Assembly: GCA_032622095.1 (NCBI GenBank)
Contig: CP136061.1
Span: 255,451,582 to 255,515,581, forward strand
Direction: 5' to 3'
Origin: Siphonodentalium dalli
Taxonomy: Eukaryota > Mollusca > Scaphopoda > Gadilida > Siphonodentaliidae
Length of the DNA: 64,000 bases
Shown in pieces: positions 3,581 to 57,295 of this stretch (its first letter is position 1; every line of letters begins with the position of its first letter). The notes under the pieces are model-generated. The model saw only the letters and a list, made by a program, of their open reading frames with translations, did not search any database and had not been told where the DNA came from. A program made the position numbers and the translations under genes.

Positions 3581-5084
3581 ATATATGCAAGTCGCCCACA
3601 AAGAGCCTCGCATATATAGAAGAATACAATGACCTAACAATTGTTAGGAATGATAGAAAGGCCCAAAGAAAACTCGTGACCAATAAATTAAACCATCGTT
3701 ATGTAATAAATTTCTGTCACATCTTCGGTCATTTATTTTCCAATTATTCGTCTTAGTACTATCACATCTCACATCGTAATTAGCAAGTCTCTGCTACGCT
3801 TTACTTCGTTTTATTCTTTGTCAACATTCTCACGACTATAGTTCAGCGTCGCCTAATTATCACGATTTAAGATGAAGCTTCGTTAATCAGATAATTAGCT
3901 AATTAACATTTCATGAAGTGTCAATACGAATTCCATGCTTCGGCATTTTCGTTGAATATTAATTGGACCTATAAAACTGTAAACAATCGGTCCTTAGTTA
4001 TAAATGCCGATAATAATGTGCAATATACCACATATTAAGTCGGTCAATGTTGTTTTACTGATCAGTACATAATTCTAGTGCGCACTGAATTTAACTGGAT
4101 TAACGTCTTAGGAATTTAGGAATAAATTGATGTATAATCTTGAATTTAAGAGTTTAAACTGTTTGAAACCCAGTGTATACAGACGGCGTCACCAATATGG
4201 TATGTATACATGATCATTAAAAAAATGGAGAATAATTTTCTCCTAAAATATTATTCCCCAACGAATCAATTCGTGTGGTCATTATTTCAGATATTATTAT
4301 AATATATCTCTTTAAAAGTTTGGACTAAAGTGGGTTTGTGTCACATCCGCGGCTCCACCCACGACGTAATATTACAATACCGAAATTCACTACACACCAC
4401 CCAGTTTTATTTTGAAACACCAATAAACACAGGACTCGCAATATGTGTGAACTTGATTTGACGCATGTTGCTAAAATAGGAAGTGACATTTTTGTCACGC
4501 TGTTCCTCCGTACAATCTAACCTCCACATTCTGACCTCCAGTATCGCGTACGGAAATCACCGAGGTTTGCCGATTGCTCCACATTGTTGACAAATTTTTA
4601 ATAGGATGTATTCCCTATTGGGAATGCTCCAGACAAGAACCCTAATAGGGAATGCTGCAGCGGAGACCAGATTGAATTCGTCGTATGGTCGTTATATACT
4701 GAGTCAGCATGTATGTCTGTCAAAACTGCTAGCAGAGTAGAGTATGCTGACAAAATATCAGGTAAGTTAGTCAACTTTCTTCTGCCAAGTTCTGGTTTCA
4801 GATCACACGACATTTCACTGTCTGTCCAGCTAGTTGCACCGATCGGGATTATTTCCCCCTAATAATTAGGCTGTAAGAAGTCGCATATTACGTTTAATGT
4901 TTTCAAACAGTTTTACCAAATATACCTTCACGTACAGACAAACAATGAAAACAAACTTATAGATCAGTAATAGATCATCATACCATACAAAGGGGAGAAA
5001 CTCTATCTTGCATGTTTGAAAGTTGGCACAGTACTATAACTAGTAGTAGTGTGGCAAGATCCTGCTTACAGCAATAATTAGATG
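3581..5084. other. Non-coding stretch, one short shared word
   Basis: No exon or element is recognised across 1.5 kb of AT-rich sequence. A word beginning ACGGAAATCACCGAGGTTTG near 4550 recurs near 25279, suggesting a short fragment of an unidentified repeat. A partial repeat of CCTAATAGGGAATGCT and similar words lies near 4610-4660. Confidence 0.5.
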
Positions 5085-10085: not shown

Positions 10086-10168
10086 ATGTCTACAGCAGTC
10101 TTGCTCAATTTCCTAACATGCAGTAATCGGAATTGTCAGTGGTCTTTGAATACAGATTTCTTGTGAGC
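10086..10168 (+). promoter_or_regulatory. Candidate 5' UTR of exon A with a 26-codon upstream ORF
   Basis: An acceptor-like TTTGTTCCAG ends at 10085. The following ATG at 10086 opens a short frame that ends with TGA at 10164-10166, two bases before the main ATG at 10169. Such close spacing could affect translation of the main frame by reinitiation, but this is inference. The exon start ATGTCTACAGC resembles the start of exon B, ATGTCGACAAC. Confidence 0.4.
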
Positions 10169-10388
10169 ATGGAGGGATTCGTTCCCATGGGGAAAGTGGT
10201 TGACCTGTTGCACAGCTGGTCGTGTGACTCACCTGAGTCTAATAGCCTTCATCAACATGCAGTCACCGAAGAAACCACACTAAACACGAACAGTGACTCG
10301 GATGTGACCAATGGGATACCAGCAGAAGGACACAAATCATCTATCGTTGCCAATACACTAGTGGTTGCATCTCCATTGTGTGAAAGAG
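10169..10388 (+). CDS. Exon A: first coding exon of zinc-finger gene (73 residues)
   Basis: The frame from ATG 10169 begins MEGFVPMGKVVDLLHSW and ends SPLCER plus one base of the next codon. It then meets a strong donor, AGAG|GTATGT, at 10389. The phase-1 end fits exactly the phase-1 starts of exons B, C, D and E. Joining to exon B creates a GAT codon and continues VDNDSRSSKHAW without a stop. An in-frame stop at about 10124 lies upstream, supporting this ATG or a nearby start. The peptide is acidic, rich in Ser, Thr and Asn, and has no domain I recognise. The open frame runs past the donor into a 52-bp tandem repeat, which I regard as intronic. Without transcript data the start and the upstream exon structure are provisional. 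Confidence 0.6.
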
Positions 10389-11736: not shown

Positions 11737-14663
11737 ATGTCGACAACGATTCAAGAAGTAGCAAACATGCATGGAATGAAGGTTATATGGTCAACTCGAC
11801 AGCCGATAACACAGAATCCAATGACTATCACAAACACGCTGGTCAAGGTAGAGATGTTGTGGAAACAATGGCGGCTGATGACGTCATCTCAGCTATATCC
11901 GTAACTCGGACTTCTACAACCGAACAGAGCAGCGATGTTCACCAAGCAGAGGTAACGAATGAGTTGGATTTGGTTTACCTAAATGTTGATGACGCTAAAG
12001 ATGATATGTATATACCAGACTTAATTAGGTGCTTGGATACTACTTCTAATAGCGACGCTGTGTTACCTGGATATGAGAGGACGAGTGTTCGCTATAAAAT
12101 GAGTGTTGAGGTTGAGGAATGCAGGGAATTCGGTTCACTGATGTCTACAGATGGTTTACACCCGATTAAGTTTACGGATTCGATTCCTGATGTGTCTCAA
12201 GTTCAAACGAGAGTAGCGTTCGTTTCGCCTTCATGTAAAACACCGACTTCCATACAAGGTCCGCCACGTATCGCACCAAATCACACACAAGGACCGCCAT
12301 ATATCGCATCGACTTCCGTACAAGGACCGCCATATATAGCACAAACTTCCACTCAAGGACCGTCATATATAGCACCTACAACCATACAAGGACCGTCGTA
12401 TATAGCACCAACAACCATACAAGGACCGTCATATATTACACCGTATTCAAGAGAAGGACCACCATATACATCACCGACTTCCATACAAGGACCGCCATAT
12501 ATAGCCCCAACTTCCATACACAGGCCGCCATATACAGCAACGACTTACATACAAAGACCGCCATATATAACACCAACTTCCATCCAAAGACCGCCATATA
12601 CAGCACCAACGTCCATACAAGGGCCGCCATATAGAGCACTGACTTGCATACAAGGGCTGCCATATGCAGCATCAACTTCCATACAAGGGCCGCCATATAA
12701 CGCACCGACTTCCATACAAGGACCGCTATATACAGCACCGACTTCCATACAAGGTCCGCCACCGTATATATCACAGCCTACCATACAAGGACCACCATAT
12801 ACAGCACCGACTTCCACACAAGGACCGGCATATAACGCACCGACTTCCAAACAAGGACCGTCATATATAGCACCGACTTCCACACAAGGACCACCATATA
12901 CAACACAGACTTGCATACAAGGACCGTCATATAACTCACCGTCAGCTTCTATACAAGGACCGCCATATACGGCACAGACTTCCATACAAGGACTGCCACC
13001 AAATATATCACAACCCTCCATACAAGGACTGCGATTTATAGCACCTACTTCCACAAGAGGATCACCATACACAGCACCGACTTCCATACAAGGACAGCCA
13101 CCAAATATATCACAACCTACCGTACAAGGACCACCACAATATATATCACCGACTTCCGTACAAGGACTGGAATTTATCGCACCTACTTTTACACGAGGAC
13201 CATCGCATACATCGCCGACTTACATACAAGGACTGCGATTTATAGCACCTACTTCCACACGTGGATCACCATACACAGCACCGACTTCCATACAAGGTCT
13301 GCCACCGTGTATGTCACAAGCTACCGTACAAGGACCACCACAATATATATCACCGACTTCCATACAAGGACTGGGATTTATAGCACCTACTTCCACACGA
13401 GGACCACCGCATACATCCCTGTCTTACAGACAAGGAATGCGACCTAGTTCCACATGGGTACCGCCATATATCACACCAACTTCGACACAAGGACCAGCAC
13501 CGACCATTCAGCAAGAGACGCGAGTTTGTTCGAGCAAGTCAGACCACATGCAGCCGTCATCAGATATAATCTCGAACGTTTTGCCGGAAGTGAGTCCGTT
13601 TGCTAGGAATATTACGTCGGACACAAGTTACATATCATCTATAAATTGTGCATCGGCATATACACGCAGGCGTGATTGCCCGGCGCCACATGTACATTCA
13701 GATAATATTTCGAGTAATGTTAAAATAACAGAGCTGCTTCAACATGGTGGTTCCAATAGCGAAATAAGCGCTATGCAATATTACATTTCGCCTTCGATTA
13801 AGGAGAAGTTATCAGCACAGTTTAGGGTACCACACAATATCTCGCCATCAGATAATTCAGCCTGTATAACTCCAACCGAAGGTCCACCGCCTACTTTGTT
13901 ACAAGCGCCGACACGATCTGGCACAACCGGACACAATTCACATGGCAGGCGCAGCTGGTTCAAAGAGCCGAATGACCAGTTGCCTCAAAACTACAAACCT
14001 GAGGAAACCACATCCAACGAGATGGAGAATGGTCGCCCTACATATGATTGTTGCACGAACAATGCGTCACCAGCTCGTCACGACGTGGAAACTAAATTCA
14101 ACGAGACGGAAAATGGTCGCCCTATGTATGATGAGTGTTGTACAACCAATGCGTCACCAGCTTGTTATATGGAAACTCATTTCTTGCAGATTAATTCAGA
14201 TCAGCATAGCGTTCGTCCTGAAATTGCGGAAACAGCATCAGAAGTAGCCAGTAAAAGGGACAATGTGTGCTTTTTGTGTGGCGATTGTTACTCTAACAAA
14301 TCTATACTAGCTGTCCACATGCAGGAACATTTCTTGGAAAGGATGCGCGAATCGCCAGAAATAGCATTCGCAAATTTTGGAACGAATCCTCCAACCAGAG
14401 GATCGAGTCTTAGCGAAAGGATGAGAATATCGAACGGAAGCGAAGATACACAGCACACTGGTCACGTGTCCGATGACAGGAGCTCAGATTGTGGCATTCG
14501 GTCCTCTGCATTACATGTGGACAATGACAGAACTCCAGACCCAAGTTCTGAAGAAAACACCAACAGCGATTTCGATGGTGAGAACATTATTTTGCGAAAA
14601 CCCTGTGTCAATGCATTTTCTTATATATACGAGTCGAGAATATGTCGTTTCGCATATGTATGA
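11737..14663 (+). CDS. Exon B: Pro/Tyr/Gln repeat and single C2H2 finger exon
   Basis: The exon starts after a T-rich acceptor ending at 11736 and is open in phase 1 (AT|GTC GAC) to a TGA at 14661-14663. The first ~150 residues are acidic and polar. Then come about 35-38 copies of an 11-residue repeat, consensus PTSIQGPPYTA, then ~240 residues of Ser/Thr-rich disorder. One C2H2 finger follows at 14266-14330 (CFLC, 12 residues, H, 3 residues, H), continuing into FLERMRESPEIA. The tail is acidic. A strong donor, GATG|GTGAGA, lies at 14578 and would end the exon in phase 1 at 14577 (2841 nt, divisible by 3). If that donor is not used, the last ~20 residues and the stop come from a hairpin element. 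Paralogous to exon C. Joined to exon A it would encode about 1048 residues. Confidence 0.65.
12242..13500 (+). repeat. 33-bp coding minisatellite inside exon B
   Basis: The unit is CCGACTTCCATACAAGGACC plus GCCATATACAGCA, exactly 11 codons. Length variants of 30-36 bp insert or remove whole codons, and some units add a residue (PPPYIS). The reading frame is preserved throughout, although the unit is stop-free on the opposite strand too. The encoded segment is low-complexity and rich in Pro, Tyr, Gln and Gly. Confidence 0.9.
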
Positions 14664-15600: not shown

Positions 15601-15790
15601 ATAGGGCTCCTTCTTCAGGTTTATTTGTCTGTCGTCTGCTTTTATCACTATAACATCCCTCCAAATCAATGATAGACCATACGATTGTTATACTGGCTGG
15701 ATGAAAGGTGTAAACTGTGTAATCATATGGGCCAGCGAATTAAAACAGTTTATAATTCGGCACGATGCCTTGAACCTGTGTAGTTTATAT

Positions 15791-16245
15791 GTGACCCTCC
15801 ATATCAAATCCAGTCGTAAGTCGGATTTTTTTTACCCTGTGCCAATGCATTCTCTTATATATGCGAGTCGACCATAGGTCGCCTCGCATATATAAGAGAA
15901 TGCATTGGCCTAACAATGTTTTATCATTTTTTTAAAATAAATGTTTCTTACAATTTTTAGGACATAAAATAAAAAACATCCATTACCCTGCCGGGAGCCC
16001 CACACATATATAGAAGCATATATAAGAGTGTCGTCTGCTCATGTTTGTTTGGGGCTCTGTATGGTGAAATTATAAAATTGTTAAAGAATACAAGAAAAAA
16101 TTATTAAAATTGTAAAAAATTGTTAGGCCAATGCATTCTCTTATATATGCAAGGCGACCTATGGTCGACTCGCATATATAAGAGAATGCATTGGCACAGG
16201 GTAAAAAAATCCCGACTTAGGACTGGATTTGATATGGCGGGTCAC
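15791..16245. mobile_element. Double-hairpin element H1, copy 2 (most complete)
   Basis: The outer ends GTGACCCTCCATATCAAATC and its complement (ending GGTCAC at 16245) define terminal inverted repeats of about 120 bp. Each contains an internal palindromic hairpin with ATGCATTCTCTTATATATGC. Flanks are TATAT on the left and ATATA on the right. This copy gives the best estimate of the full element, 455 bp. Confidence 0.85.
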
Positions 16246-17258
16246 ATATAAGAAATATATATTGATTTTGTTGCGTTCCATGGAGTATGGATCTAAGTTG
16301 GTCTGGCATTATTTTGTGTTTTTCGCGTTCCACACATAATTTCGCACCTACCGGTACTTGCACCCATATTCTGCATGAGTCGCGCAACAAAATCAACATT
16401 GGTTTTTCCTAAATTGTCGAAAATCAAACAATCCACATACATCTTCATGCACCCGCAGTTGTGTTTTGTTGCCACATCTTAGTGGCTAGTTCAGTTTGTT
16501 ATGTAACAATAAATGATTTCTGTCCATTTTCAATAATTTTAGGTGGTGGGGGGACTATACTACAACCTTCTGCTGTGCCATGGTCATTTATAAATATCAC
16601 ATGAATGCTTGTTCGGAGCATTTATTTGTCTGTACTTTGACCGGATTTTCACATCACAAGTTATCTCCCTTGTATTGTCTATGCAAAATCCTCATTTTAA
16701 AACCATTTTTGGTCGAAATTGGCCGTCTTCGGCCGCATAGCTAACAACGACAAAGCGAATGTCAGTCTATGATCGTCTTATGACCTGATAGATCCTAGAT
16801 AGATGTAACATATGTTAAATGTGTTTTAAAGTTATCGTATAATTTTGAAATTTGGTCTTCTAAGTCCAGACAACTGTTTTTAAGGGAGATAAATCAGGCT
16901 CTTTTCCGGTGGAGTGCCATACAGAGTTGGCCCACGCCAGATACCAAACACATACATAGTATTCAAACATCATCCCATTTTGTAAACTATGGTAACTTAA
17001 TTAAACCACCAAAACAGTACTCCAACGAATAACAGACAAAAACTGAGTCATACATGTAGCCGTTATATGCTTAAATCGTATTTTCAGGCCTCCCACAAAC
17101 CCATGAAATCGTGTATTGCTACCTTAGGAATGTTTCTCCCTCCCCCACCCGGCAATTTCGGGCAGAATTAGTTGCTGTTCTCGGATTTCAATTAACCGTT
17201 CCGCACTAATCTCCAATACTCACGTGAGCCTCACATGCAGGGCACTAAAATATCACAT
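16246..17258. other. Non-coding stretch, nothing recognised
   Basis: About 1 kb between the hairpin element and a large fold-back. No exon with matching phase and splice sites was seen. Probably intronic if exons B and C belong to one gene. Confidence 0.5.
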
Positions 17259-18680: not shown

Positions 18681-19918
18681 TGACAGAAAAAAGTCTGACT
18701 GCTGTGCGACGCACGAGAAGGTCTATGGCTACAGCTTCTGACCGGAAACTAAGATTGAATGCAGAAAATCGCACAATGCTTGGAACAACTTCACACTCTG
18801 TTGGCGTCACAAGAACTACAAGGAAGATGCCCCAAGCCAAACATACAAAAATGGTGCCAGCGGTGACTTCACAGGCGCGCGTTCAGCTACGAAAGTTCTT
18901 GCAGTCACATATGTCAAACAAAATTGTTGTGCATGTACAACCCGAAACTTCACCAGAAGTAACCATCAATAGGGAGAATGTGTGTTTTGTGTGTAATAAG
19001 TGTTACTATACCGAACACATACTAGCTTGCCACATGCAGGAGCATTTCTTGGAAAGGATGCACGAAACGCCAGAAATTGCGCGCGAAATCAAAATAAAAC
19101 CAGCTACCAGTTCTGCCGGTGGGCACCATGAGGACACATTATTAAATAGTGCAATCTCTCTCGGAATGAGGACTAGTCAGTCAGTTACCAGAACAGCCAG
19201 CCTACGAATGCGCAACACACGAAGCGGTACGTGTGCTGATGTCAGTAACCATGGCGATCTCTCTGACGACGAAATGTCTGATTACGGAAGCTCTGATTGT
19301 GATAGCGACCAAATGAGCACAAGTCAGTCGATTACCAGAAGAGCCAGCCTGCGAATGCGCACCCCACGAAGCAGTAAGGGTGTTAATATCAGTAACCATG
19401 GCGATCTCTCTGACGACGAAATTTCTGACGACGGAAGCTCTGATTGTGATAGCGACCAAATGAGCACGAGTCAGTCGGTTACCAGAAGAGCCAGTCTGCG
19501 AATGCGCACCCCGCGAAGCAGTAATGGTGTTGATATCAGTAACTATGGTGATCTCTCTGACGACGAAATTTCTGACGACGGAAGCTCTGATTGTGATAGC
19601 GACCAAATGAACACGAGTCAGTCGGTTACCAGAAGATCCAGCCTGCGAATGCGCACCCCACGAAGCAGTAAGGGTGTTAATATCAGTAACCATGGCGATC
19701 TCTCTGACGACGAAATTTCTGACGATGAAATGTCGGATTGTAATAGCAACAATAGTTGGGACCCATATGTTGATGATGACGTAATCGGTGGGGAAGATGA
19801 CGTCACCAATGAATCAAGTAATGAAGAAACGGCCAAGCAAACTGAAACTGAGACAGATAGTGATAGTGATTCGGATGGTAAGAATATAATTCATCCTGTC
19901 ATGACTGGAGCTTCCTGA
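18681..19918 (+). CDS. Exon C: single C2H2 finger with 49-residue repeats
   Basis: The acceptor TCTTTTGCAG ends at 18680, and the exon is open in phase 1 (TG|ACA GAA) to a TGA at 19916-19918. A consensus donor, GATG|GTAAGA, at 19878 would end it in phase 1 at 19877 (1197 nt, divisible by 3). The N-terminal ~80 residues are basic. A C2H2 finger follows near 18982-19045 (CFVC, 12 residues, H, 3 residues, H) and runs into FLERMHETPEIA. Next come four copies of a 49-residue unit with SLRMRTPRSS and DLSDDEISDD motifs, then an acidic tail ending DSDSDSDG. The finger and its flanks align with exon B, so the two are paralogous modules. No catalytic domain is visible. The role is presumably nucleic-acid or protein binding in the nucleus, by inference. 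The open frame upstream of 18681 is intron and fold-back sequence. Confidence 0.65.
19165..19750 (+). repeat. 147-bp coding tandem repeat in exon C, four copies
   Basis: Units start near 19165, 19312, 19459 and 19606, exactly 147 bp apart. Each encodes a basic SLRMRTPRSS block followed by an acidic, Ser-rich block. The last unit is modified at its 3' end. Confidence 0.92.
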
Positions 19919-20413
19919 AAATTTGCGAAAACCCTGTGCCAATGCCTTCTCTTATATATGCAAATCGCCCATAAAGAGCCTCGCATATGTGACCGCCATA
20001 TCCAAAAATTTTTTACCCTGTGCCAATGCATTATCTTATATATGCGAGTCGACCATACATAAGAGAATGCATTGGCCTAACAATTTTTTATCATTTTTTT
20101 TAAATAAATGTTTCTTACAATTTTTAGGACATAAAATAAAAAACATCCATTACCCTGCCGGGAGCCCCACACATATATAGAAGCATATAGAAGAGTGTCG
20201 TCTGCTCACGTTTGTCTGGGGCTCTGTATGGGTGAAATTATAAAATTGTTAAAGAATACAAGAACAAATTATTAAAATTGTAAAAAATTGTTAGGCCAAT
20301 GCATTCTCTTATATATGCGAGGCGACCTATGGTCGACTCGCATATATAAGAGAATGCATTAGCACAGGGTAAAACAATCCCGACTTCCGACTGGATTTGA
20401 TATGGCGGGTCAC
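19918..20413. mobile_element. Double-hairpin element H1, copy 3, at the 3' end of exon C
   Basis: A diverged hairpin beginning GCGAAAACCCTGTGCCAATG directly follows the stop of the extended exon C frame. A fuller H1 copy (20013-20373) with a truncated left hairpin comes next, ending GGCGGGTCAC at 20413. The same order, exon end then H1 hairpin, occurs after exon B. Confidence 0.8.
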
Positions 20414-20639
20414 ATATATGTAAGTCGCCCACCTAGAGCCTCGCATATATAGAAGAATACAATGACCAAACAATATTTACCGTGACCGTATAAGCCAGTG
20501 CATTCTCTTATATTTGCGAGGCTCCCTATGAGGGATTCGCACATATTAGAGAATGCACTGAAACAGGATATTTAATGGTGCACCAGCGCAGCTCCTGGCA
20601 TGAAAGGTTTAATGCCTATTCTGCCAAAAATAGAGTGGT

Positions 20640-21717: not shown

Positions 21718-21720
21718 TTT

Positions 21721-24390
21721 GTATGACCCACACGTGTCACACAGTAATGATGGATACCCGATGTATGACCCACATGTGTCACACAGTAATGATGGATACC
21801 CGATGTATGACCCACACGTGTCACACAGTAATGATGGATACCCGATGTATGACCCACACGTGTCACAGTAATGATGGATACCCGATGTATGACCCACACG
21901 TGTCACACAGTAATTATGGATACCCGATGTATGACCCACACGTGTCACACAGTAATGGTGGATACACGATGTATGACCCACACGTGTCACACAGTAATGA
22001 TGGATACCCGATGTATGACCCACACGTGTCACACAGTAATGGTGGATACCCAATGTATGACCCACACGTGTCACACAGTAATGATGGATACCCGATGTAT
22101 GACCCACACGTGTCACAGTAATGATGGATACCCGATGTATGACCCACACGTGTCACACAGTAATGATGGATACCCGATGTATGACCCACACGTGTCACAC
22201 AGTAATGAGTGATACCCAGTGTATGACCCACATGTGTCACACAGTAATGATGGATACCCGATGTATGACCCACATGTGTCACACAGTAATGATGGATACC
22301 CGATGTATGACCCACACGCGTCACACAGTAATGATGGACACCCGATGTATGACTCACATGTGTCACACAGTAATGATGGATACCCGATGTATGACCCACA
22401 TGTGTCACACAGTAATGATGGATACCCGATGTATGACCCACGTGACTGTGTCACACAGTAATGATGGGTACCCGATGTAATACCCACGTGACTGTGTCAC
22501 ACAGTAATGATGGATACCCGATGTATGACCCACACGTGTCACACAGTAATGATGGATACCCGACGTATGACCCACACGTGTCACAAAGTAATGATGGACA
22601 CCCGATGTATGACCCACACGTGTCACACAGTAATGATGGATACCCGATGTATGACCCACACGTGTCACACAGTAATGATGGATACCCGATGTATGACCCA
22701 CACGTGTCACACAGTAATGATGGATACCCGATGTATGACCCACACGTGTCATACAGTAATGATGGATACCCGATGTATGACCCACATGTGTCACACAGTA
22801 ATGATGGACACCCGATGTATGACCCACACAGTAATGATGGATACCCGATGTATGACCCACACGTGTCACAGTAATGATGGATACCCGATGTATGACCAAC
22901 ACGTGTCACACAGTAATGATGGATACCCGATGTATGACCCACACGTGTCACACAGTAATGATGGATTCCCGATGTATGACCCACACGTGTCACACAGTAA
23001 TGATGGATACCCGATGTATGACCCACAGTGTCACAGCAATGATGGATACCCGATGTATGACCCACATGTGTCACACGGTAATGATGGATTCCCGATGTAT
23101 GACCCACATGTGTCACACAGTAATGATGGATTCCCGATGTATGACACACACGTGTCACACAGTAATGATGGATACCCGATGTATGACCCACACGTGTCAC
23201 AGATTAATGATGGATACCCTATGTATGACCCACATGTGTCACACAGTAATGATGGATACATGATGTATGACCCACATGTGTCACACAGTAATGATGGATA
23301 CCCGATGTATGACCCACATGTGTCACACAGTAATGATGGATACCCGATGTATGACCCACATGTGTCACACAGTAATGATGGACACCCGATGTATGACCCA
23401 CATGTGTCACACAGTAATGATGGACACCCGATGTATGACCCACACGTGTCACACAGTAATGATGGACACCCGATGTATGACCCACATGTGTCACAGTAAT
23501 GATGGATACCCGATGTATGACCCACATGTGTCACACAGTAATGATGGATACCCGATGTATGACTCACATGTGTCACACAGTAATGATGGACACCCGATGT
23601 ATGACCCACATGTGTCACACAGTAATGATGGACACCCGATGTATGACCCACATGTGTCACACAGTAATGATGGACACCCGATGTATGACCCACATGTGTC
23701 ACACAGTAATGATGGATACCCGATGTATGACCCACATGTGTCACACAGTAATGAGGGATACCCGATGTATGACCAACATGTGTCACACAGTAATGATGGC
23801 ACTTGAGTCCACGACATAAGCTATAATCACAGGTAGAGCACTCTACAGTAAAGGCAGTCTCACACGTGTCACAGTAATGATGGATACCCTATGTATGACC
23901 CACATGTGTCACACAGTAATGATGGATACCCGATGTATGACCCACATGTGCCACACAGTAATGATGGATACCCGATGTATGACCCACACGTGTCACACAG
24001 TAATGAGGGATACCCGATGTATGACCCACATGTGTCACACAGTAATGATGGATACCCGATGTATGACCCACATGTGTCACACAGTAATGATGGACACCCG
24101 ATGTATGACCCACATGTGTCACACAGTAATGAGGGATACCCGATGTATGACCCACATGTGTCACACATTAATGATGGACACCCGATGTATGACCCACATG
24201 TGTCACACAGTAATGAGGGATACCCGATGTATGACCCACATGTGTCACACAGTAATGAGGGATACCCGATGTATGACCCACATGTGTCACACAGTAATGA
24301 TGGATACCCGATGTATGACCCACATGTGTCACACAGTAATGAGGGATACCCGATGTATGACCAACATGTGTCACACAGTAATGATGGCAC
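21721..24390. repeat. 42-bp satellite array, about 63 copies
   Basis: The unit is GTATGACCCACACGTGTCAC followed by ACAGTAATGATGGATACCCG and AT. The period equals 14 codons and lacks stops in most frames, so open frames up to 330 codons appear on both strands, for example repeats of SNDGYPMYDPHVSH. The array is broken once by a unique 65-bp segment at 23800-23865. Each unit carries either CACGTG or CATGTG in its palindromic core. The CpG form predominates left of about 22.2 kb and the TpG form right of about 23.2 kb. Confidence 0.97.
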
Positions 24391-24452
24391 TTGAGTCCAC
24401 GACATAAGCTATAATCACAGGTAGAGCACTCTACAGTAAAGGCAGTCTCAAA
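23800..24452. repeat. Higher-order duplication of the satellite tail
   Basis: The non-satellite tail starting GGCACTTGAGTCCACGACAT and ending AAAGGCAGTCTCA occurs at 23798-23863 and again at 24385-24451. The block of satellite units plus tail was therefore duplicated as one segment of about 590 bp. Confidence 0.88.
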
Positions 24453-31147: not shown

Positions 31148-31617
31148 TGTGGACCCAACCTGGTCTGAAGACAGTTACTGAGCGAGGTCTTAGACAATCA
31201 TATATCTGATTCTGATTCTCAGTCATGATTCGTCCATTTCCAACACTAAAATATCATATAAAATGGTGTTTATTTTAATGTACATGTATGTCCAATAACC
31301 GATCTGTGAACAAACAGAAGTTGAATTGTTAAACCGTGAATTGTCAATATAATATTGTTATATTGTCATAATTCCGTTTAAATAGGCGCGTCTATCCAAC
31401 TTTGATTGTTCGGGGGAGTTCGAACTAACTACTGTATTTCCCTCTTGTTATAATTACATAGGTCGTGTTCGAACTCCAGCTGTGCGCTTACCAAACATAA
31501 CACTATATCCGATGTGAGGGTCCGTATATAGAGACGGCGCCGTTTTTTTGTAAAACAACTATCATTTACAAGTACATGAAACAATAGATTGACTGCAAAT
31601 AGCGTGTCTGTCATTGG

Positions 31618-31715
31618 CAGAATGAGGTCACCAGATGGTGAATTTAGTGAAGCTACCCGCATAGCGGGCTAGCATCACTAAATTCACCCTGTGGGGACCT
31701 CATTCTGCTCAGGCC
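31618..31715. mobile_element. Hairpin MITE H2, copy 2
   Basis: CAGAATGAGGTCACCAGATG to its complement ending GGGACCTCATTCTG, arms of about 45 bp, small loop. It lies in the part of copy 1 missing from copy 2. Confidence 0.85.
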
Positions 31716-31912
31716 CTCAACTGCTATGGCAGACCTAGGATCATATTGAAGTTCCCCAGTTGAAGCTGGTGATGTTCACCATTGGGTGCCTCGATTATGG
31801 ATTTTATCTTCTGCAAATTAGGGGATATAGAAACTTCCCAGATGGGAAAACGTAACTAAAAACAATGTTAATTTGATACCATAGATACTTCCCAGAAAAT
31901 GAGGCCTAACCA

Positions 31913-32005
31913 GAATGAGGTCCCCAGAGGGTGAATTTAGTTATGCTAGCCAGCTATGCGGGATAGCGTAACTAAATTCACCCTCTGTGGACCTCATTCA
32001 CAAAC
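31913..32005. mobile_element. Hairpin MITE H2, copy 3
   Basis: CAGAATGAGGTCCCCAGAGG to TGTGGACCTCATTC. The preceding 70 bp (AACTAAAAACAATG…GAGGCCTAAC) also precede the half copy at 50110. Confidence 0.85.
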
Positions 32006-32410
32006 CATTGTTATGTAAACATTACTTAACTTGACGGTAAACATTGGAACATATTCAAAAAATCATATTCAGTCTAAAATAATTTAACTACACGAATTGT
32101 TTGTTGTAACGGTTTTGTTTACATTACAATGATATCAAGACGCGAATTTTCGTAATTGGAGAACTATAAATATTGAATACAAGAAAAGTTGTATATATTT
32201 CTCCATATTCTTCTTAGTGGTGGTGTGTTACATTATTTTATACTTCTCCGGTCTATGTGGGGCTCTCTATGGGTTAGACATACTATATCCATGATTGAGC
32301 TTTATAGATGTGTTTAATGTTTAGCCCACAGGGAGCCTCACACAGATGGAAGCATGTACTACAGAGTCTCGTCTGCTCACTATGGATTAGACACACATGA
32401 GGCCTAAGAA

Positions 32411-32505
32411 AGAATGAGGTCCCTAGTGGGTGAATTTGGTGATGCTAGCCTGGTGCGTGGGATAGCATCATTAAAATCACCATCTGAGGACCTCATTCTG
32501 CAAAT
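32411..32505. mobile_element. Hairpin MITE H2, copy 4
   Basis: AGAATGAGGTCCCTAGTGGG to GAGGACCTCATTCTG. It is embedded in a ~360-bp block (about 32240-32600) absent from the duplicate locus, where TTATACTT joins directly to GCGTATTTACATAC. Confidence 0.85.
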
Positions 32506-32771
32506 AAAAGAAACATTATATCCAGTCTTGGACCTACTCCGATGAGTGAAATTCATGAATGTTTTATGGGTAACCCACAGAGAGCCTCCTTATTGTATGC
32601 ATATTTACACACTGCGATTGCATTGTGTCTCTAGAAAACAAATCGATCTTTTTAATACTTCAAAGAAAAATATTTTATAACAGTTCTATATATAAAAAAA
32701 ATCAGTTGTATGTCTTGTCTGCATGGGAGAGACACCACATCTTTAAACGTTAAAACATGTTCATGTTATAG

Positions 32772-34843
32772 TTACAGAGGAAACACGGGCTGGTGGGCGA
32801 CACACAAGGACACTTATGAGCACGACTTCCGTAGTAACAAGAGCGGAGCCAGCGATACACTCACTTCCGGAGTTGACGTCACATCGACTTCCACAGATGA
32901 CGTCATGGTCCACTGTTGTCCCGAACACATCCCAGACAACAAAACAAGTGATACGATTCGACTCATCAAAAGTGACAACACAAGAGACACCACAGTTATT
33001 TCTGTTGACATGCGTCCCTCTCGTTCCTGCCAAAGAAACAGGTCAGCTTTCGCAGATATCCGCCCGACCCGAGATTAGGCCACACTCTCCGAACGTAGCA
33101 ACGCCATTGGTGAAGAACACTCCAAGAGCACATACTTCGTCATGGCGTCCCAACATATTGCGCAAAGTGTTTAGAAGAAATTCTTCAAATGATCCCGAGA
33201 CCCAACCTGTGGTAGAAGGGACCCCTCCAACAGTGAACGTTTCGTTGCCAAATTTCGATATTCTTACAAACCATTCAAGTTGTATCCAAGTACAGCCATG
33301 TGACGTCACTCAATCTGGGCTTGCCTGTGCAGTAGCGGGAAGTTGTATCCAAGGAAAGACGAGTGACTCCACTCAATCGGGGCTCAACCACGCAGTGGCG
33401 GGAGTTTATATCCAAGGACAGACTGGCGACGTCACTCAATCGGGGCTCACCCATGCATTGGCGGGAAGTTGTATCCAAGAAATTATAGATGACGTCACTC
33501 AACCGGAGCTCACACAGGCAAAAGCGGGCAGTGTAGACAATCGGGCTGCCGAGCCAACTGTTCCGCGCATATACAACAGCACTGAAACTTTAGCTATTTT
33601 CAGTGGAACGAATTGTTCAGTGCAATACCCAACATCCACCTCTAAAGAACAAGTCTCGTCAGATGGAGCAGCCAGTCGGAATACCCTGGGGTCTCAGAAC
33701 CCAAGTGAGCTATCTGAATTGCAGACGATGAGTTGCGTTGCTGGTGACAACAATCAAACTGGTGCCGTCGCAACGATGCATGTTGCTAATGACAACAAAC
33801 AAACAGGTGCCATCGCAACGATACCCGTTGCTAGTGACAACAATCAAACTGGTGCCGTCGCAACGATGCATGTTGCTAATGACAACAAACAAACTGGTGC
33901 CATCGCAACGATACCCGTTGCTAGTGACAGCAAGCAAACTGGTGCCGCCGCAATGATACCCGTTGCTAAAGACAAACAAACTGGTGCCATCGCAATTATA
34001 CCCGTTGCTAGTGACAACAAGCAAACTGGTGCCATCGCAACGATACCCGTTGCTAAAGACAAACAAACTGGTGCCATCGCAATTATACCCGTTGCTAGTG
34101 ACAACAAACAAACTGGTGTCGTCACAACGATACTCGTCGCTAATGACAACAAACAAACTGATCTCATCGTGATACCACGACAAATGCTCGCCAGACAATC
34201 GGCAGTAAAGAACAATAGGATTAGGAATAGGAAGAGTAGGTCACATGGTGTTCATCACATAGGCTTCGATGCATTCCGCAACACGGATGGAGAGTATGTG
34301 TGTTGTGTGTGCTCGGATATCTTCATGTCTGCCCGGCAATTGTCTATCCATCTGTTAAACAAGCACGCAGGTGTTCAGAAACCCTGTGTTTTGTGTTCTA
34401 AAAGTTACCGAGTCAGGCAGAGTTTCCTTCGACACGTGGCGAGTTGTGGTAAAACATTCCTGTGTGACGTGTGTGGAACGACGTTCATATCACGGTATAG
34501 TTTGTACTTCCATCGCTACTCGGTACATGGTGAGAAGAAATTCGCTTGCGACAAATGCTCTTATAAGACAACTAAAAAACAAAACTTACGAGTCCACATG
34601 GTATCTCACTCGGATATTCGAAATCACTTATGTGATATATGCGGTAAAGGTTTTGGCAAGAAATTAGTTTTAAACCGTCACATTAAGTCCCACACAGGAG
34701 AAAAGAAGTTTTCTTGTGACTTGTGCGGTTTGGAATTCATACAGAAATGTACTCTCGACAGACATCTTAAGACTCCATCTCATCAGATGAGAATCCCTCA
34801 GAAACGAAAGTCAAGAATTCGTAGTAAAACTTTAGTGTCTTAA
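32772..34843 (+). CDS. Exon D: terminal exon with six C2H2-type zinc fingers
   Basis: The frame is open in phase 1 from an acceptor at 32771 (or 32777, six bases later) to TAA at 34841-34843. If translation starts in this exon, the first ATG is 32816 (675 residues). The order is: Ser/Thr-rich disorder; four ~21-residue repeats (SCIQGKTSDSTQSGL type); ten 14-15-residue repeats (VASDNKQTGAIATIP type); a basic stretch; then six fingers in the last ~165 residues. Finger 2 is C2HC (its last ligand is Cys) and finger 6 has five residues between its histidines. The HTGEKK linker lies between fingers 5 and 6. A basic tail, PQKRKSRIRSKT, could be a nuclear signal. The likely role is sequence-specific DNA binding. 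The polypyrimidine tract is weak, so a separate single-exon gene remains possible. Confidence 0.8.
33733..34170 (+). repeat. 45/42-bp coding tandem repeat in exon D, ten units
   Basis: Units encode V-A-x-D-N-K-Q-T-G-A-I-A-T-I-P or a 14-residue variant, VAKDKQTGAIAIIP. All length changes are whole codons. Exon E has eight units. Confidence 0.9.
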
Positions 34844-34908
34844 CCTCTTCATTGCCGCACGACGTCATGTGCGGGACCGTTGACGTTCTGGCCACGTTTG
34901 CAGTGGAA

Positions 34909-34914
34909 AATAAA
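34909..34914 (+). terminator. Candidate polyadenylation signal after exon D
   Basis: An AATAAA hexamer lies 66 bases after the stop codon. At the equivalent place after exon E the sequence is AATATA (39682-39687), a weaker variant. Confidence 0.5.
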
Positions 34915-35010
34915 ATGGGGAATGTCACGAATGTCTTCATGCAAAGGCTGTTATCATACCTTACTCGTATTTAAATTTGCGCAGTGCTATTTTTAAAACT
35001 GAGCGAAAAA

Positions 35011-37032
35011 TAATAAGTTTATACCAATTAAAAATAGGAAAATAAGAGGGCTATTTTAAATAATATGATCATGTACGTACACGTAATTTGCGCCCGCTTG
35101 TTACTGTTCATGTGATTATCGGATGAATTGTTATCTTTATGGAAGGATTTGATGATAAACCCTAATTAGGGTGGATACACACATGCATACATGTAATCCC
35201 TGTAATTACCGTGTATTTGGCGTTTTACATGGATCATACAGACGATGTGATATGTGCCCACTGACAACCCAATCATTGCCTACGTGTTGAACGCACTGAG
35301 TTCTAGTTCCAATTAAGTCGGAATGTAGATAAGCCGTTTTCTTGGACCGAGTCGCCAGGCCACTTAAAATAATCGTTCGTGAGATAACCCATATGGTAGA
35401 CTTTCTATTTAAATAATTACCAGTCCTCTCTTATTTATAGCAGTGGTGGATCAGGATTTCCCCGACGCATGCAGGGGCTATATATGACCCGAAAGCTACC
35501 AGGCGGGGGTGGCAAACTCTGAGCTATTTAAGTAAAACATATCATATTGTACCTTCTTGCCCAGATTATTCCGACCGATACATTCAACTAAGTCCCTTAG
35601 CGATTTGAACCTTTCGAGACCCCACCCAAACAAGCGTCTGTATCTGTATGTGTTTCAGCGCTGGAGCCTCTCGACTGTGTTTGCGCTGTGGGAGGACTAT
35701 GCTGTTTTATCCGTTGTTTCCTTGCATGTGCTATCCTCCAGGCTGTCCCACTCCTCGATAGCTCGAACAAAGAACGAGTGTTGAAAATGTTCTACATCAA
35801 GCCTGTATATGCCAGACGTATGGCTTCTGGTGGTCGTGCATTAATATAATGCCAGATATCACACAGACTTGACTAATTTCCGCATCCTTGAGAGAAGACA
35901 TGTTTTTGGACTGGCATTAAATGTACTGATAGAAGACAATTTGATTTCGCTTAGCACTGCTCACTTGTCTGGCCTGTTAACAATGAACCGCTCGCGCGCA
36001 GGTGATTAATGTTGTCAATTATTGGTGTGGCCATGAAAAATACATGTATTTACATACAGAAATTACACGCATGTGTGTATCCACCTTAATTATAATGGGA
36101 CACAAGAAAATGATATATACAATGTATGTAAATAATCACATATAACGTAAATGTGGATATTTAGCCTGCCATGCAATACGAGTCTCAGCTGTCTGGCCAT
36201 CGACGCAGTCCTGTCTGGAATTTTGCGCGCCGGCGTAGGTAGTGACGTCATGATGTACGTCTTGATGTCATGACGCCTTTACTGGTTTCCCAAGAAGCAA
36301 TCTTAAAATGACTCTGCGATCTTTCAATCGGAACTAAAGTTTCCGTTTGTCGGCCTTGAACTTTGAGAATATTTCATCAATTTTTTAGGCGGAAATACCG
36401 TTAGAAAATTGAAGATAAAATGTAAACGGCCAGCAAGGTCGCTAGACTCCTCTTTCCGGGTAAATATTTTTAATAATTTTATGAAATATGTAAACAAAAC
36501 TTTTTCATGCAATTTAACTTTTTTGTTGACCAGAGCTTTTGTTCAATTTACATTCACATTTTGAAAATATATTTGGCCTTAGGAGCATGATGTTCCTACA
36601 TATGATGAAGTATAGCTAACAGAAACTGTTGCTAGATCAAAGTTTTTTATTTTTGCCCTGGAGCATTTTGCCCAATTACACATTTCGAGGTGGCATTAAT
36701 CAATACAAAATGGCGACCGTTGCCAACAATAGAATTTTGGACTCCGCTGACCCTGGTTGACCCTTCAGTTATGAATAAATTATCCTATTTTAGGTGATTT
36801 CAATTTATTTTTAGATTGGGCCGAAAAAGTCGATTAGTATATATCTCATATTCGCATACGTATACCCTGGTCGCTTCGCTTCCGCGGCTTCGCCGCGGGA
36901 AAGCGGGCGCTATAAAATAGACAATTATATTTACGTTCGGCCAAACGAATCTCAACATGTAAAGCGTTCAATCATACTATCATAGTTAGATATAAATAGA
37001 CAATTATATTTACATGCGGGGACACGAATCTC
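35011..37032. other. Spacer between duplication copies, nothing recognised
   Basis: Two kilobases of mostly unique DNA. A compact GC-rich hairpin (GCTTCCGCGGCTTCGCCGCG) lies near 36880. A word, TAGACAATTATATTTAC, occurs twice near 36917 and 36997. No exon was seen. Confidence 0.5.
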
Positions 37033-37631
37033 AACTACTGTATTTCGTGTTCGAACTCCAGCTGTGCGCTTACCAAAAATAACACTATATCCTGTGTGAA
37101 GGTCCGTATATAGAGACGTCGCCGTTTTTTGTAAAACAACTATCATTTACAAGTAAATGAAACACTAGATTGACTGTCAACTCTCCAATAATAATTATGT
37201 CACAAACCATTGTTATGCAAACATTACTAAACTTGATGGTAAACATTGGTAAAAGGTCAAATCATTGAAACATATTCCACAAATCATATTGAGACTAAAA
37301 TATTTTAACTACACGAATTGTTTGTTGACGGTTTTGTTAGAATGATATCAAGACGAGAAATTTCGTAATTGGGGAACTATAAATATTGAATACAAGAAAG
37401 TTGCATCTATTTCTCCATATTGTTCTTAGTGGTGGTGTGTTACATTATTTTATACTTTTGCGTATTTACATACTACGATTGCATTGTGTCTCTAGAAAAC
37501 AAATCGATTTATTTACTACTTCAAAGTCAAATATTTTATAACAGTTCTATATAAAAAAAACAAATCAGTTGTATGTCTTGTCTGGGGAGAGACACCACAT
37601 CTTTAAACGTTAAAACATGTACATGTTATAG

Positions 37632-39616
37632 TTACAGAGGAAACACAGACTGGTGGGCGACACACAAGGACACTTATGAGCACGACTTCCGTAGTAACAA
37701 GAGCGGAGCCAGCGATACACTCACTTCCGGGGTTGACGTCACGTCGACTTCCGCAGATGCCGTCATGGTCCATTGCTGTCACGAACACATCCCAGACAAC
37801 AAAACAGGTGATACGATTCGACTCATCAAAAGTGACAACACAAGAGACACCACAGTTATTCCCGTTGACATGTGCCCCTCTCGTTCCTACCAAAGAAACA
37901 GGTCAGCTTTCGCAGATATCCGCCCAACCCGAGATTATGCCACGCCCTCCGAACGTAGCAACGACATTGATGAAGAACACTCCAAGAGCACATACTTCAT
38001 CATGGCGTCCCAACATATTGCGCAAAGTGTTTAGAAGAAATTCTTCAAATGATCCCGAGACCCAACCTGTGGTAGAAGGGACCCCTCCAACAGTGAACGT
38101 TTCGTTGCCAAATTTCGATATTCTTACAAACCATTCAAGTTGTATCCAAGTACAGCCATGTGGCGTCACTCAATCTGGGCTCACCCACGCAGTAGCGGGG
38201 AGTCGTATCCAAGGAAAGACGAGTGACGACACTCAATCGGGGCTCAACCACACAGTGGCGGGAGTTTATATCCAAGGACAGACTGGCGACGTCACTCAAT
38301 CGGGGCTCACCCATGCATTGACGGGAAGTTGTATGCAAGAAATTATAGATGACGTCACTCAACCGGAGCTCACACAGGCAAAAGCGGGCAGTGTAGACAA
38401 TCGGGCTGCCGAGCCAACTGTTCCGCGCATATACAACAGCACGGAAACTTTGGCTATTTTCAGTGGAACGAATTGTTCAGTGCAATACCCAACATCCACC
38501 TCTAAAGAACAAGTCTCGTCAGATGGAGCAGCCAGTCGGAATACCCTGTGGTCTCATAACCGAAGTGAGATATCTGAATTGCAGACGATGAGTTGCGTTG
38601 CTAGTGACAACAATCGAATTGGTGCCGTCGCAACGATGCATGTTGCTAATGACAACAAACAAACTGGTACCATCACAACGATACCCGTTGCTAGTGACAG
38701 CAATGAAACTGGTGCCGTTGCAACGATGCATGTTGCTAATGACAACAAACAAACTGGTACCATCGCAACGATACCCGTTGCTAGTGACAGCAATGAAACT
38801 GGTGCCGTTGCAACGATACCCGTTGCTAAAGACAAACAAACTGGTGCCATCGCAATTATACCCGTTGCTAGTGACAACAAACAAACTGGTGTCGTCACAG
38901 CGATACTCGTCGCTAATGACAACAAACAAACTGATCTCATCGTGATACCACGACAAATGCTCGCCAGAGAACAAGCAGTAAAGAAAAATAGGATTAGGAA
39001 TAAGAAGGGTAAGTCACAGGGCGTTCATCACGTAGGCTTCGACGCATTCCGCAACACGGATGGGGAGTATGTGTGTTGTGTGTGCTCGGATGTTTTCATG
39101 ATTGCCCGGCACTTATCTATCCATCTGTTAAACAAGCACACAGGTGTTCAGAAACCCTGTGTTCTGTGTTCTAAGAGTTACCGAAGCAGGCAGGGTTTCC
39201 TTCGACACGTGGCGAGTTGTGGTAGAACTTTCCTGTGTGACGTGTGTGGAACGACGTTCATATCTCAGAAAAGTTTGTACGGCCATCGCTACTCGGCACA
39301 TGGTGAGAAGAAATTCGCTTGCGATAAATGCTCTTATAAGACCGCTACAAAACCAAAATTACTAGCCCACGTGGTATCTCACTCGGATAATCGAAATCAC
39401 TTATGTGATATATGCGGAAAAGGTTTTAGCAAGAATGTAGTTTTAGACCGTCACATGAAGTCACACTCAGGAGAGAAGAAGTTTTCTTGTGATGTGTGCG
39501 GTTTGGAATTCATACAGAAATGTACTCTAGACAGACATCTTAAGACTCCATCTCATCAGATGAGAATCCCTCAGAAACGAAAGTCAAGAATTTGTAGTAA
39601 GACTTTAGTGTCTTAA
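37632..39616 (+). CDS. Exon E: terminal exon with six C2H2-type zinc fingers, paralogue of D
   Basis: It is open in phase 1 from the same acceptor position as exon D (37631, or 37637) to TAA at 39614-39616. From ATG 37676 it has 646 residues. It is colinear with exon D. The 29-residue length difference equals exactly two repeat units (one of 15, one of 14 residues), so no other net indel is needed. All zinc ligands are conserved, including the C2HC second finger. Many differences fall on the helices of fingers 1-5, while finger 6 differs by one residue near its first cysteines. Intact ligands and frame argue that it is functional. The start, and whether it splices to exon A or has its own promoter, are unresolved. 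Confidence 0.8.
38598..38945 (+). repeat. 45/42-bp coding tandem repeat in exon E, eight units
   Basis: It is equivalent to the array in exon D but lacks two internal units. Some units read VASDSNETGAVATIP, a variant not seen in D. Confidence 0.9.
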
Positions 39617-39717
39617 CCTCTTCATTGCCGAATGACGTCATATGCGGGACCGTCGACGTTCTGGTCACGTTTGTAGTGGAAAATATAATAATACAAATGA
39701 CTTCATGCAAAGACTAT

Positions 39718-40195
39718 TATCATACCTAACTCGTATTTAAATTTGCGCAGTATTATTTTTCGCGCACCTATCGGTGAGCGAATATAAAACTGAGCGAAAA
39801 ATAATTCGACTCACAAGGTTATGCATTTAAAACACGCAACCAAGAGTTGATTCTTTCTGAAGTCAGCAAGTCAAGTCAAGTTCATAAATATTTATTAAAT
39901 ACCAGAATGATAAACTGTACCATGCATGTTTTTTAGCACGCATCTTCACAATGAAATGATGATGCAGTTGTTATAGTCGATGTACATTTTCGTCGAGACT
40001 GCCTTTTATATATACACATGTATCATTAGGGATAATAAACAACTGAAAATGTCATCAGATACAAGACATTTACGAAACAATTCTGTCAGTCTTGAATTCG
40101 CGCACCAGGGTGCGCGAATTCAAAGTGCGCGAATTCAAAATTGAGCGAAACATAGTACTGCGCGAATTCAAATACGAGTAAGGTACATAATTCTA
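39718..40195. repeat. Inverted pair of GCGCGAATTC/TTTGCGCAG words
   Basis: ACTCGTATTTAAATTTGCGC at 39729 is repeated in reverse complement near 40165-40190. A compact palindrome, GAATTCGCGCAC/GTGCGCGAATTC, lies near 40095-40122. Between them is a CAAGT repeat followed by AAATATTTATT (near 39863-39900), resembling the reversed tail of a LINE. Element borders are uncertain. Confidence 0.5.
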
Positions 40196-55689: not shown

Positions 55690-57295
55690 AATGTTTAGAT
55701 AATAAGTTCAACAAACGACCTAAAAGGGTTAAACTTATTATCTGAACATTTTCAATGGGATAACTACTCACTAGTGATGTTACGGTATAGAAAGGGTCAA
55801 ACTTATTATCTGAATATTTGCTATGTGATAACTACTCATCAGTGATGCTCTAGTATAGAAAGGGTTAAACTTATTATCTGAACATTTCCTATGGGATAAC
55901 TACTCAACAATGATGCGTTAGTATAGAAAGGGCTACACTTATTATCTGAACATTTCCTATGTTATAACTACTCACCAATGATGTTTTAGTATAGAAAGGG
56001 TTAGACTTATTATCTGAACATTTCCTATGTTATAACTACTCACCAATGATGTTTTAGTACATAAAGGGTTAGACTTATTATCTGAACATTTCCTATGAGA
56101 TAACTACTCAACAATGATGCTTTAGTATAGGAAGGCTAAACTTATCTGAACATTTGCTATGTGATAACTACTCAACAATGATGCGTTAGTATAGAAAGGG
56201 CTACACTTATTATCTGAACATTTCTTATGTTATAACTACTCACCAATGATGTTTTAGTATAGAAAGGGTTAGACTTATTATCTGAACATTTCCTATGTTA
56301 TAACTACTCACCAATGATGTTTTAGTACATAAAGGGTTAGACTTATTATCTGAACATTTCCTATGAGATAACTACTCAACAATGATGCTTTAGTATAGGA
56401 AGGCTAAACTTATCTGAACATTTGCTATGTGATAACTACTCACCAATGACGTTTAGGAGATAAACATACCCTGTTGAGTTGTACATTCTGGGATTCGAGC
56501 ATGAACACAGTTTGTGAACGAGCCGGCTTGCCGGCGAGTTCACAAACTGTTTCATGCTCGAATCCCAGAATGTACAACGAAACAGGGTACGTTTATCTCC
56601 ATTGTAATTCAATCTAGCAAGGAATTTGCAAAAAAACTGTATGAAAAGTGTCATTTTCATGACACGAATCGAGACTTTTATTTCGCCGTTGTCACCGTGC
56701 ACAAATCATTGTGTTTGTTCATTGCGTTACTCGGAACACTGCTCCGTAACCATTTCCTGTGGGGCGGGTTGGCTCGTTTCATTACTCCGTTCTGCGCCGA
56801 TGAAATTGTACCGTGTCACATTCAGATTTGATGCACGCTGAAGCGGCCGATGAACGGTATCTATAGACAACAACGCGCGGGTGTGCTCGTTTCGCTACTC
56901 GTTCTGCGCCGATGAAATTTGACCGTGCTACATTCAGATTTGATGCACGCTGAAGCGGCCGATGTCGGTGAATCGAAAACGAAAGTTCGCCGCTCTCGGC
57001 CAATCAGAATGCTTGTTTTTAGTGACAAATACTCAATTGAATTACAATTTAGTATAGAAAGGGTTAGACTTATTATCTGAACATTTCCTATATGGCATAA
57101 CTGCTCACCAATGATGCTTTAGTATTGAAAGGGTTAAACTTATTAGCTGAACATTTACAATGTGATAACTACTCACCAATGATGTTTTAGTACAGAACGG
57201 GTTAGACTTATTATCTGAACATTTCCTATGGGATAACTACTCACCAATGATGCTTTAGTATAGATATTGTTAAACTTATTATCTGAATATTAAAT
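55690..57295 (+). repeat. 68-bp satellite array with 268-bp higher-order repeat
   Basis: Unit: GATGTTTTAGTATAGAAAGG, GTTAGACTTATTATCTGAAC, then ATTTCCTATGTTATAACTAC and TCACCAAT. About 11 units lie left and 3-4 right of an inserted element (56456-57047). A block of four units starting near 55911 repeats at 56179, a 268-bp higher-order period. The left edge carries an inverted junction shared with the small array at 15.5 kb. Confidence 0.93.
56456..57047. mobile_element. 592-bp insertion in the satellite, with a 145-bp palindrome
   Basis: The satellite unit is interrupted after GTTTA and resumes at TTTAGTATAG, giving a candidate TTTA target duplication. The insertion opens with a palindrome, GGAGATAAAC to GTTTATCTCC (56456-56600), centred near 56528. 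It contains a ~112-bp direct duplication (56769-56966) with TTCAGATTTGATGCACGCTG. Open frames here are interrupted and unrecognised. Confidence 0.75.

Follow-up and report, generated by a model that had tools for sequence, protein, structure and literature searches.

Contact-biased divergence between two tandemly duplicated six-finger exons, probably alternative last exons of one C2H2 zinc-finger gene, in the scaphopod Siphonodentalium dalli

The window analysed here, a stretch of 64,000 nucleotides from the scaphopod mollusc Siphonodentalium dalli (assembly GCA_032622095.1, contig CP136061.1, positions 255,451,582 to 255,515,581 of the forward strand), contains two related open frames, D (32747-34843) and E (37607-39616), each of which encodes six C-terminal zinc fingers. 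The two are probably tandem-duplicated, mutually exclusive last exons of a single multi-exon C2H2 zinc-finger gene, whose predicted DNA contacts appear to have been under positive selection. An earlier note on this DNA had described D and E as paralogous; they are indeed related tandem copies, but the acceptor and stop present in each make alternative last exons the best interpretation, with a start exon and two further coding exons, X and Y, in common. Since both end in stops, a transcript can hold only one of them as its coding end. One gene may in this way encode two proteins with different DNA targets and, if so, would retain its older DNA specificity as a new one is tried out in the copied exon, under the same promoter and with the same protein front.

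Both arrays are recognized as C2H2 fingers in profile searches, with PF13894 scoring 55.8 bits in D and 56.6 bits in E (cut-off 27) and PF00096 scoring 40.3 and 41.5 bits (cut-off 25.2), and their nearest solved chains are ZNF568 and CTCF. In each, finger 2 is of the C2HC type and the linkers of fingers 1-3 are non-canonical. C2H2 fingers contact DNA through helix positions -1, 2, 3 and 6, at which fingers 1-6 read SRQI, VQSR, SYSF, KQNV, KLVR and QCTR in D, and IRHI, SQGR, SKSG, TPKA, KVVR and QCTR in E. Upon alignment, exactly 11 of the 24 predicted contact residues differ, as estimated in the earlier note, with the spread over fingers 1-6 that it had described (2, 2, 2, 4, 1 and 0), compared to 15 of the remaining 137 finger-region residues, where about 15 of roughly 139 had been claimed. 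The zinc ligands are identical in D and E, likewise in keeping with that note. The excess at predicted contacts (Fisher one-sided p=1.6e-4) is retained when three ligand and two core residues of every finger are dropped (11/24 versus 15/107, p=1.2e-3), and is present in both a widened set of positions (-1, 1, 2, 3, 5 and 6; 15/36 versus 11/125, p=1.7e-5) and a narrower one (-1, 3 and 6; 8/18 versus 18/143, p=0.0024), with no excess at two control position sets (p=0.33 and 0.79). An artefact of wrong register was rejected, the four-position template having been slid over 17 registers and found to be maximal in the true one (11; next 9 and 9). Helix positions 1 and 5 each differ between D and E in 2 of 6 fingers, so that the excess spans the helix face beyond the four canonical positions, and the core residue at helix position 4 never differs. 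Among five full arrays, namely D, E and those of three related loci on contig C6, finger 6 reads QCTR in all five and finger 5 reads KLVR, KVVR and, in the three from C6, KIIR, with fingers 1-4 variable; fingers 5 and 6 are nearly fixed and fingers 1-4 diversify.

Substitution rates were obtained with a purpose-written codon-likelihood script of the GY94 type with a common synonymous rate, the contact and remaining codon classes having been fixed beforehand from the claim of the earlier note. By the Nei-Gojobori method, the contact codons of D and E display 15 nonsynonymous changes over 54.5 sites and a single synonymous change over 17.5 (pN 0.275, pS 0.057), compared to 15 over 320.3 and 12 over 90.7 for the other finger codons (pN 0.047, pS 0.132). 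The fit to the pair yields an omega of 2.80 for contacts and 0.34 for the rest (p=2.2e-7 for equal omegas; p=0.013 for a contact omega of 1), and a five-array tree with separate classes gives a D/E contact omega of 2.87 (p=0.0083 against 1). The comparison of dN/dS at contact and scaffold codons that the earlier note had proposed as a check on its claim is thereby borne out in this pair, where the contact omega is higher than that of other codons and above 1. A mutation hot spot at the contacts was rejected, since synonymous change there is low (1/17.5). The omega of helix positions 1 and 5 is 0.95, and that of non-contact codons on the D branch is 0.11 (p=0.012 against 1). As a separate sample, the three full arrays from C6 give omegas of 1.23 for contacts and 0.33 for the rest (p=5.4e-4 for the difference), and all five full arrays give 1.38 and 0.32 (p=6.4e-11). 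Diversifying change at the predicted DNA contacts of the D/E pair is thus supported, with moderate power. The suggestion that DNA-binding specificity is diversifying between the two arrays, as made in the earlier note, holds in so far as the contact omega exceeds 1 in the pair and no nearer donor for gene conversion was found in the assembly, but not in its picture of D and E, which do not resemble two paralogous genes.

The neutral divergence of D from E varies along their length. Synonymous divergence is 0.041 before an in-frame minisatellite, 0.038 inside it and 0.123-0.132 in or just before the fingers (non-contact codons), and noncoding divergence is 0.052-0.070 upstream and 0.118 downstream. 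Synonymous changes number 13/320 in the 5' part versus 18/154 in the finger part (p=0.003), and all 5' versus all 3' neutral divergence, the flanks being concordant, differs with p=5e-4. By position, neutral divergence in 32598-34068 of D and 37459-38927 of E is approximately threefold below that of the finger part and 3' flank, 34148-34994 and 38921-39760. Most simply, D and E would have undergone homogenisation of their 5' part once duplicated, leaving the true age to be seen in the finger part. Relative to the local neutral rate of 0.117, comprised of finger-region synonymous sites and the 3' flank, nonsynonymous change at contacts (15/54.5) is raised 2.3-fold (p=0.004 with the 3' flank and p=0.008 without it), and relative to the whole-exon neutral rate of 0.071 it is raised 3.9-fold (p=4e-5). 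The copy is young (finger-region synonymous difference of about 0.12), such that the early steps of divergence should be readable and the two arrays constitute a direct, testable pair.

The alternative-last-exon structure finds good support in the predicted anatomy of the locus (Table 1). Every junction of the chain from the start exon through X and Y to either D or E is in phase 1, with the acceptors of the last exons ending at 32777 (D) and 37637 (E). The 25-base acceptor region is identical in D and E, and the AG preceding AGG is kept in all five array exons (D, E and the C6 copies c1, c2 and c3); c1 no longer has the other AG, which lies six bases before the first and would leave the phase unchanged. 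In all copies compared (X in the window, c2 and c3; Y in these and c1), the lengths of the two exons are divisible by three and their frames contain no stop, and the Y acceptor reads GCAG/TG or ACAG/TG across copies. The start exon shares its frame, ATG and donor with c2 and c3, at 75% amino acid identity in the search and with pS of 0.25-0.28 and pN of 0.13-0.14 between the window and C6, and its four copies in the genome comprise one in the window and one at each C6 locus. Exon X bears proline-rich 11-residue repeats and one C2H2 finger at 14268, and exon Y bears one C2H2 finger at 18983, four 49-residue repeats and an acidic end, with no Pfam match to either at the curated cut-off. A query with the Y finger gave 14 genome matches, of which the window holds two, in X and Y, and none between D and E. 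The aligned coding columns of D and E number 2,072 and contain a single gap, of 87 bases and in frame, compared to 7 gaps in approximately 540 noncoding columns, mostly not multiples of three. Directly established are the pattern in the sequence, the chain of exons in compatible phases, the presence of only one start exon and the excess in rate. Joined together, the start exon, X, Y and D would encode about 2,100 residues.

Table 1. Predicted features of the zinc-finger gene in the window (a slash marks an exon boundary)
Feature	Position	Strand	Details
End of probable 5' untranslated exon (putative)	4742..4761	+	donor TATCAG/GTAAGT
Start exon	10086..10388	+	ATG 10169, MEGFVPMGKVVDLLHSWSCD; 73 codons + 1 base; donor AGAG/GTATGT; phase 1
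Exon X	11737..14577	+	946 codons; acceptor TTTTCAG/AT; donor ATG/GTGAGA; phase 1-1
Exon Y	18681..19877	+	398 codons; acceptor GCAG/TG; donor ATG/GTAAGA; phase 1-1
Duplicated block, D copy	31463..34994	+	blastn pieces 31463-31598, 32036-32245 and 32598-34994 versus E copy; broken by two inserts, near 31600-32035 and 32246-32597
Last exon D	32778..34843	+	acceptor ATAGTTACAG/AGG; alternative AG six bases earlier gives exon start 32772, phase unchanged; N-terminal repeats, six fingers, stop
In-frame 45-base minisatellite in D	33737..34160	+	E counterpart 38597-38933, 87 bases shorter
D six-finger array	34301..34783	+	fingers start at 34301, 34385, 34463, 34547, 34631, 34715
Duplicated block, E copy	37045..39760	+	blastn
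Last exon E	37638..39616	+	acceptor as in D (alternative start 37632); six fingers, stop
E six-finger array	39074..39556	+	fingers start at 39074, 39158, 39236, 39320, 39404, 39488

A protein search with the D array, in which 150 of 11,909 candidates were scored, ranked ahead of all others scored the E array at 85% and the three C6 loci at 71-72%, followed by two C1 loci at 55%, both interrupted once by a stop within the matched stretch, and then by a C5 locus and two C1 loci at 40-41%. The chain order of start exon, X, Y and array recurs at the three C6 loci, with a single array exon at each, and only the window locus carries two. Matches to the Y finger number one to three at each related locus and are always 5' of the array in gene direction. 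Donors read ATG/GTAAGA in C5 and C1 and CTG/GTAAGAC in the two loci at 55%, and the distant C5 and two C1 loci present CTTCGTCTTTTGTAG/CG in phase 1 at the corresponding place, closely preceded by stops in the two C1 loci. For exon X of c1 the donor is present and no start could be matched, and no acceptor was identified for the arrays at C1:254192665 and C1:255539892, the latter of which has a TGA just before finger 1. Array duplication is recurrent in this family and takes two forms: c1 and c2 contain an additional partial array within the same open frame, and C1:223626294 (-) and C1:223942867 (+) each have a full array preceded by a partial one. In the genes at C6:192393263 and C6:192346488, the second, truncated array lies in the same last exon and is joined via the finger 4 region. 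The loci C1:223626294 and C1:223942867 are near-identical, on opposite strands and about 316 kb apart, and zinc ligands are lost in the partial array of the former.

Contact-biased divergence is common in this genome. From 20 hand-picked loci in other finger clusters, 21 pairs passed 60% identity, 7 of which are near-identical and hence uninformative; the remaining 14 overlap and are non-independent, and p for a contact excess lies below 0.05 in 8 of them and at 0.059-0.099 in the other 6. Contact pN exceeds the pS of other codons in 6 of the 14, at distances that are large and uncorrected. The proposal that such divergence is unique to D and E was rejected on these counts, and what would set D and E apart is that it lies between two last exons of one gene.

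Several findings weigh against the interpretation of D and E as positively selected alternative last exons, some bearing on the gene structure and others on the selection. The pyrimidine tract of the D and E acceptor is poor, a shared poly(A) signal was sought 3' of the D and E arrays and none was found, and approximately 400 bases 5' of the array exons can be aligned between E and c2 (71%) and hold TATA-like stretches, making a separate promoter possible. In that case the duplicated block would supply D and E with a promoter apiece, making them separate genes, and X and Y would be part of another; the length of both open frames, the in-frame ATG close to where each begins and the several hundred upstream bases, partly alignable to C6, that the block takes in might also point this way. 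A similar alignable stretch precedes X (68%), however, and conservation ahead of the arrays is therefore unspecific, while the in-frame Met near the start is displaced in the C6 copies (RTLMSTTS versus RTSVDMASN or TSVGMASK). Exons X and Y end in conserved donors, without a stop of their own where homology ends, the order of start exon, X, Y and array is repeated at three C6 loci, and a phase-1 acceptor is shared by all five arrays and, in stronger form, by the three distant loci, all of which render separate genes unlikely.

With respect to selection, the contact omega is not significantly above 1 in the C6 trio (p=0.57) or in the five arrays (p=0.14), and neither is that of seven arrays, with two partial ones added and the best of four topologies used (1.31, p=0.19); the non-contact omega on the E branch is 0.49 (p=0.14), and constraint on E alone is not significant. 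Contacts are faster in every sample, and exceed 1 only in D/E or in fingers 1-4 taken alone, a split chosen after the data were seen, for which omega is 4.68 in the pair (p=5e-4), 2.29 in the five arrays (p=6e-4) and 2.0 in C6 (p=0.07). Contacts that are merely relaxed, with an omega of about 1 and a scaffold kept for finger folding, would agree with the wider-family contact omega of 1.2-1.4, and the pair test depends on 15 nonsynonymous changes; yet relaxation is a doubtful account of a pair in which the contact omega exceeds 1 in both fits (2.80 and 2.87), contact change surpasses all three neutral estimates, and the contacts of fingers 5 and 6 are retained (QCTR in all five full arrays), which indicates that contacts are not free as a class. 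The longer branch of E, at 0.227 neutral changes per codon compared to 0.145 for D, and its non-contact omega indistinguishable from 1 could mark it as a recent, dead duplicate exon with a decaying array. This is quite improbable for an exon without stop or frameshift, with all ligands kept and an acceptor region matching that of D over 25 bases, and decay would not focus on contact positions. Gene conversion of the divergent fingers in D or E from another finger locus, which the earlier note had named as a possible refutation, might be read from the uneven neutral divergence described above, but is highly improbable. A genome DNA search with E fingers 1-5 returned D at 90% and then the C6 copies at 77%, 76%, 74% and 73%, no locus in the assembly being nearer to the E fingers than D, and a third-locus donor was rejected with none found in the assembly. 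Moreover, a donor tract would bring scaffold and synonymous changes, and the contacts show just one synonymous change; the raised rate also runs on into the 3' flank (0.118), for which homogenisation of the 5' part is the simpler explanation.

Under the favoured explanation of mutually exclusive last exons, a transcript from upstream, carrying the start exon, X and Y, would be spliced at the phase-1 junction to either D or E, both of which are presumably used, and would give rise to two proteins of about 2,100 residues with a common front and different six-finger arrays. Following exon duplication, fingers 1-4 would have changed mainly at their contact residues by positive selection, with fingers 5 and 6 and the scaffold held. 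The contact changes presumably alter DNA binding, the isoforms probably sharing part of a binding site and differing in the rest, and the selection may have been for new specificity. A bolder and only tentative proposal is that the gene is a swap-cassette regulator, in which a fixed front and an anchor of fingers 5-6 might be combined with duplicated last exons that supply fingers 1-4 under recurrent selection for new targets, such as mobile elements, with old and new specificities both kept within one gene through splicing and not by duplicating the gene. Arrays duplicated inside an exon could be the counterpart in its relatives.

Known systems offer parallels to each half of this explanation. 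A common 5' part followed by alternative finger-bearing 3' exons is seen in the Drosophila genes broad, fruitless, mod(mdg4) and tramtrack. The same arrangement is described for Drosophila lola, in which common 5' exons are joined to alternative zinc-finger-bearing 3' exons (PMC1947980). The window gene is like lola in layout, with one set of 5' exons and several 3' exons, each with an acceptor and stop in compatible phase. While the exons of lola encode a BTB front and, for the most part, one or two dissimilar fingers in its 20 isoforms, the window gene has two near-identical six-finger exons that stem from a recent tandem duplication, and no BTB match was found at cut-off in the Pfam scans of X and Y. 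Recent paralogues of vertebrate poly-zinc-finger genes (KRAB type) are reported to have dN/dS above 1 concentrated at positions -1, 3 and 6, and the same test is given there as negative in fly and mosquito sets (PMC2604467). D and E are like these paralogues in that dN/dS at contact codons exceeds both 1 and that of the scaffold (2.80, p=0.013), the excess over 1 not being significant across all relatives (1.31-1.38), and unlike them in that vertebrate expansions duplicate whole genes and the window locus duplicates an exon. No match to KRAB was obtained in X, Y, D, E or the genome search, and control genomes likewise gave none. Genome searches for the molluscan haemocyanin domain (PF14830) and for MHC class I also gave no match; together with those for KRAB and zf-AD, three of the searches had no match in the control genomes either, such that these negatives do not establish absence. 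Insect ZAD-ZNF genes are portrayed as young and dynamic C2H2 genes, some of them positively selected, with the linker region implicated in several (PMC7655104), whereas the finger contacts are concerned in the window gene. The zf-AD domain was absent from Pfam scans of X, Y, D and E and has one match elsewhere in the genome (E 4.7e-4). Selection on finger contacts has been described in whole genes that were duplicated, and insects are known to have alternative finger exons; the window locus would bring the two together, and no paper on this combination was found in the open-licence literature.

Other features of the window touch the gene or its surroundings. The donor-like junction at the putative 5' untranslated exon is retained in c2 and c3 and lies in a block that shows no frame conservation, and a further segment of approximately 180 bases 5' of the start exon (9153-9330) is 77-80% identical to c2 and c3, contains no common open frame and is possibly regulatory or untranslated. 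In-frame minisatellites with units of about 33 and 147 bases occupy 12228-13442 of X and 19165-19747 of Y, respectively, and the lengths of X and Y vary among gene copies by multiples of three. The intron between Y and D contains a long 42-base tandem repeat (21720-24430) whose six-frame translation mimics C-H motifs and does not represent fingers. Three repeats of 94-97% identity with inverted parts, at 3155-3641, 15785-16250 and 20009-20474, are probably short mobile elements, and short-period tandem satellites lie at the window edges (1-995 and 55723-57291).

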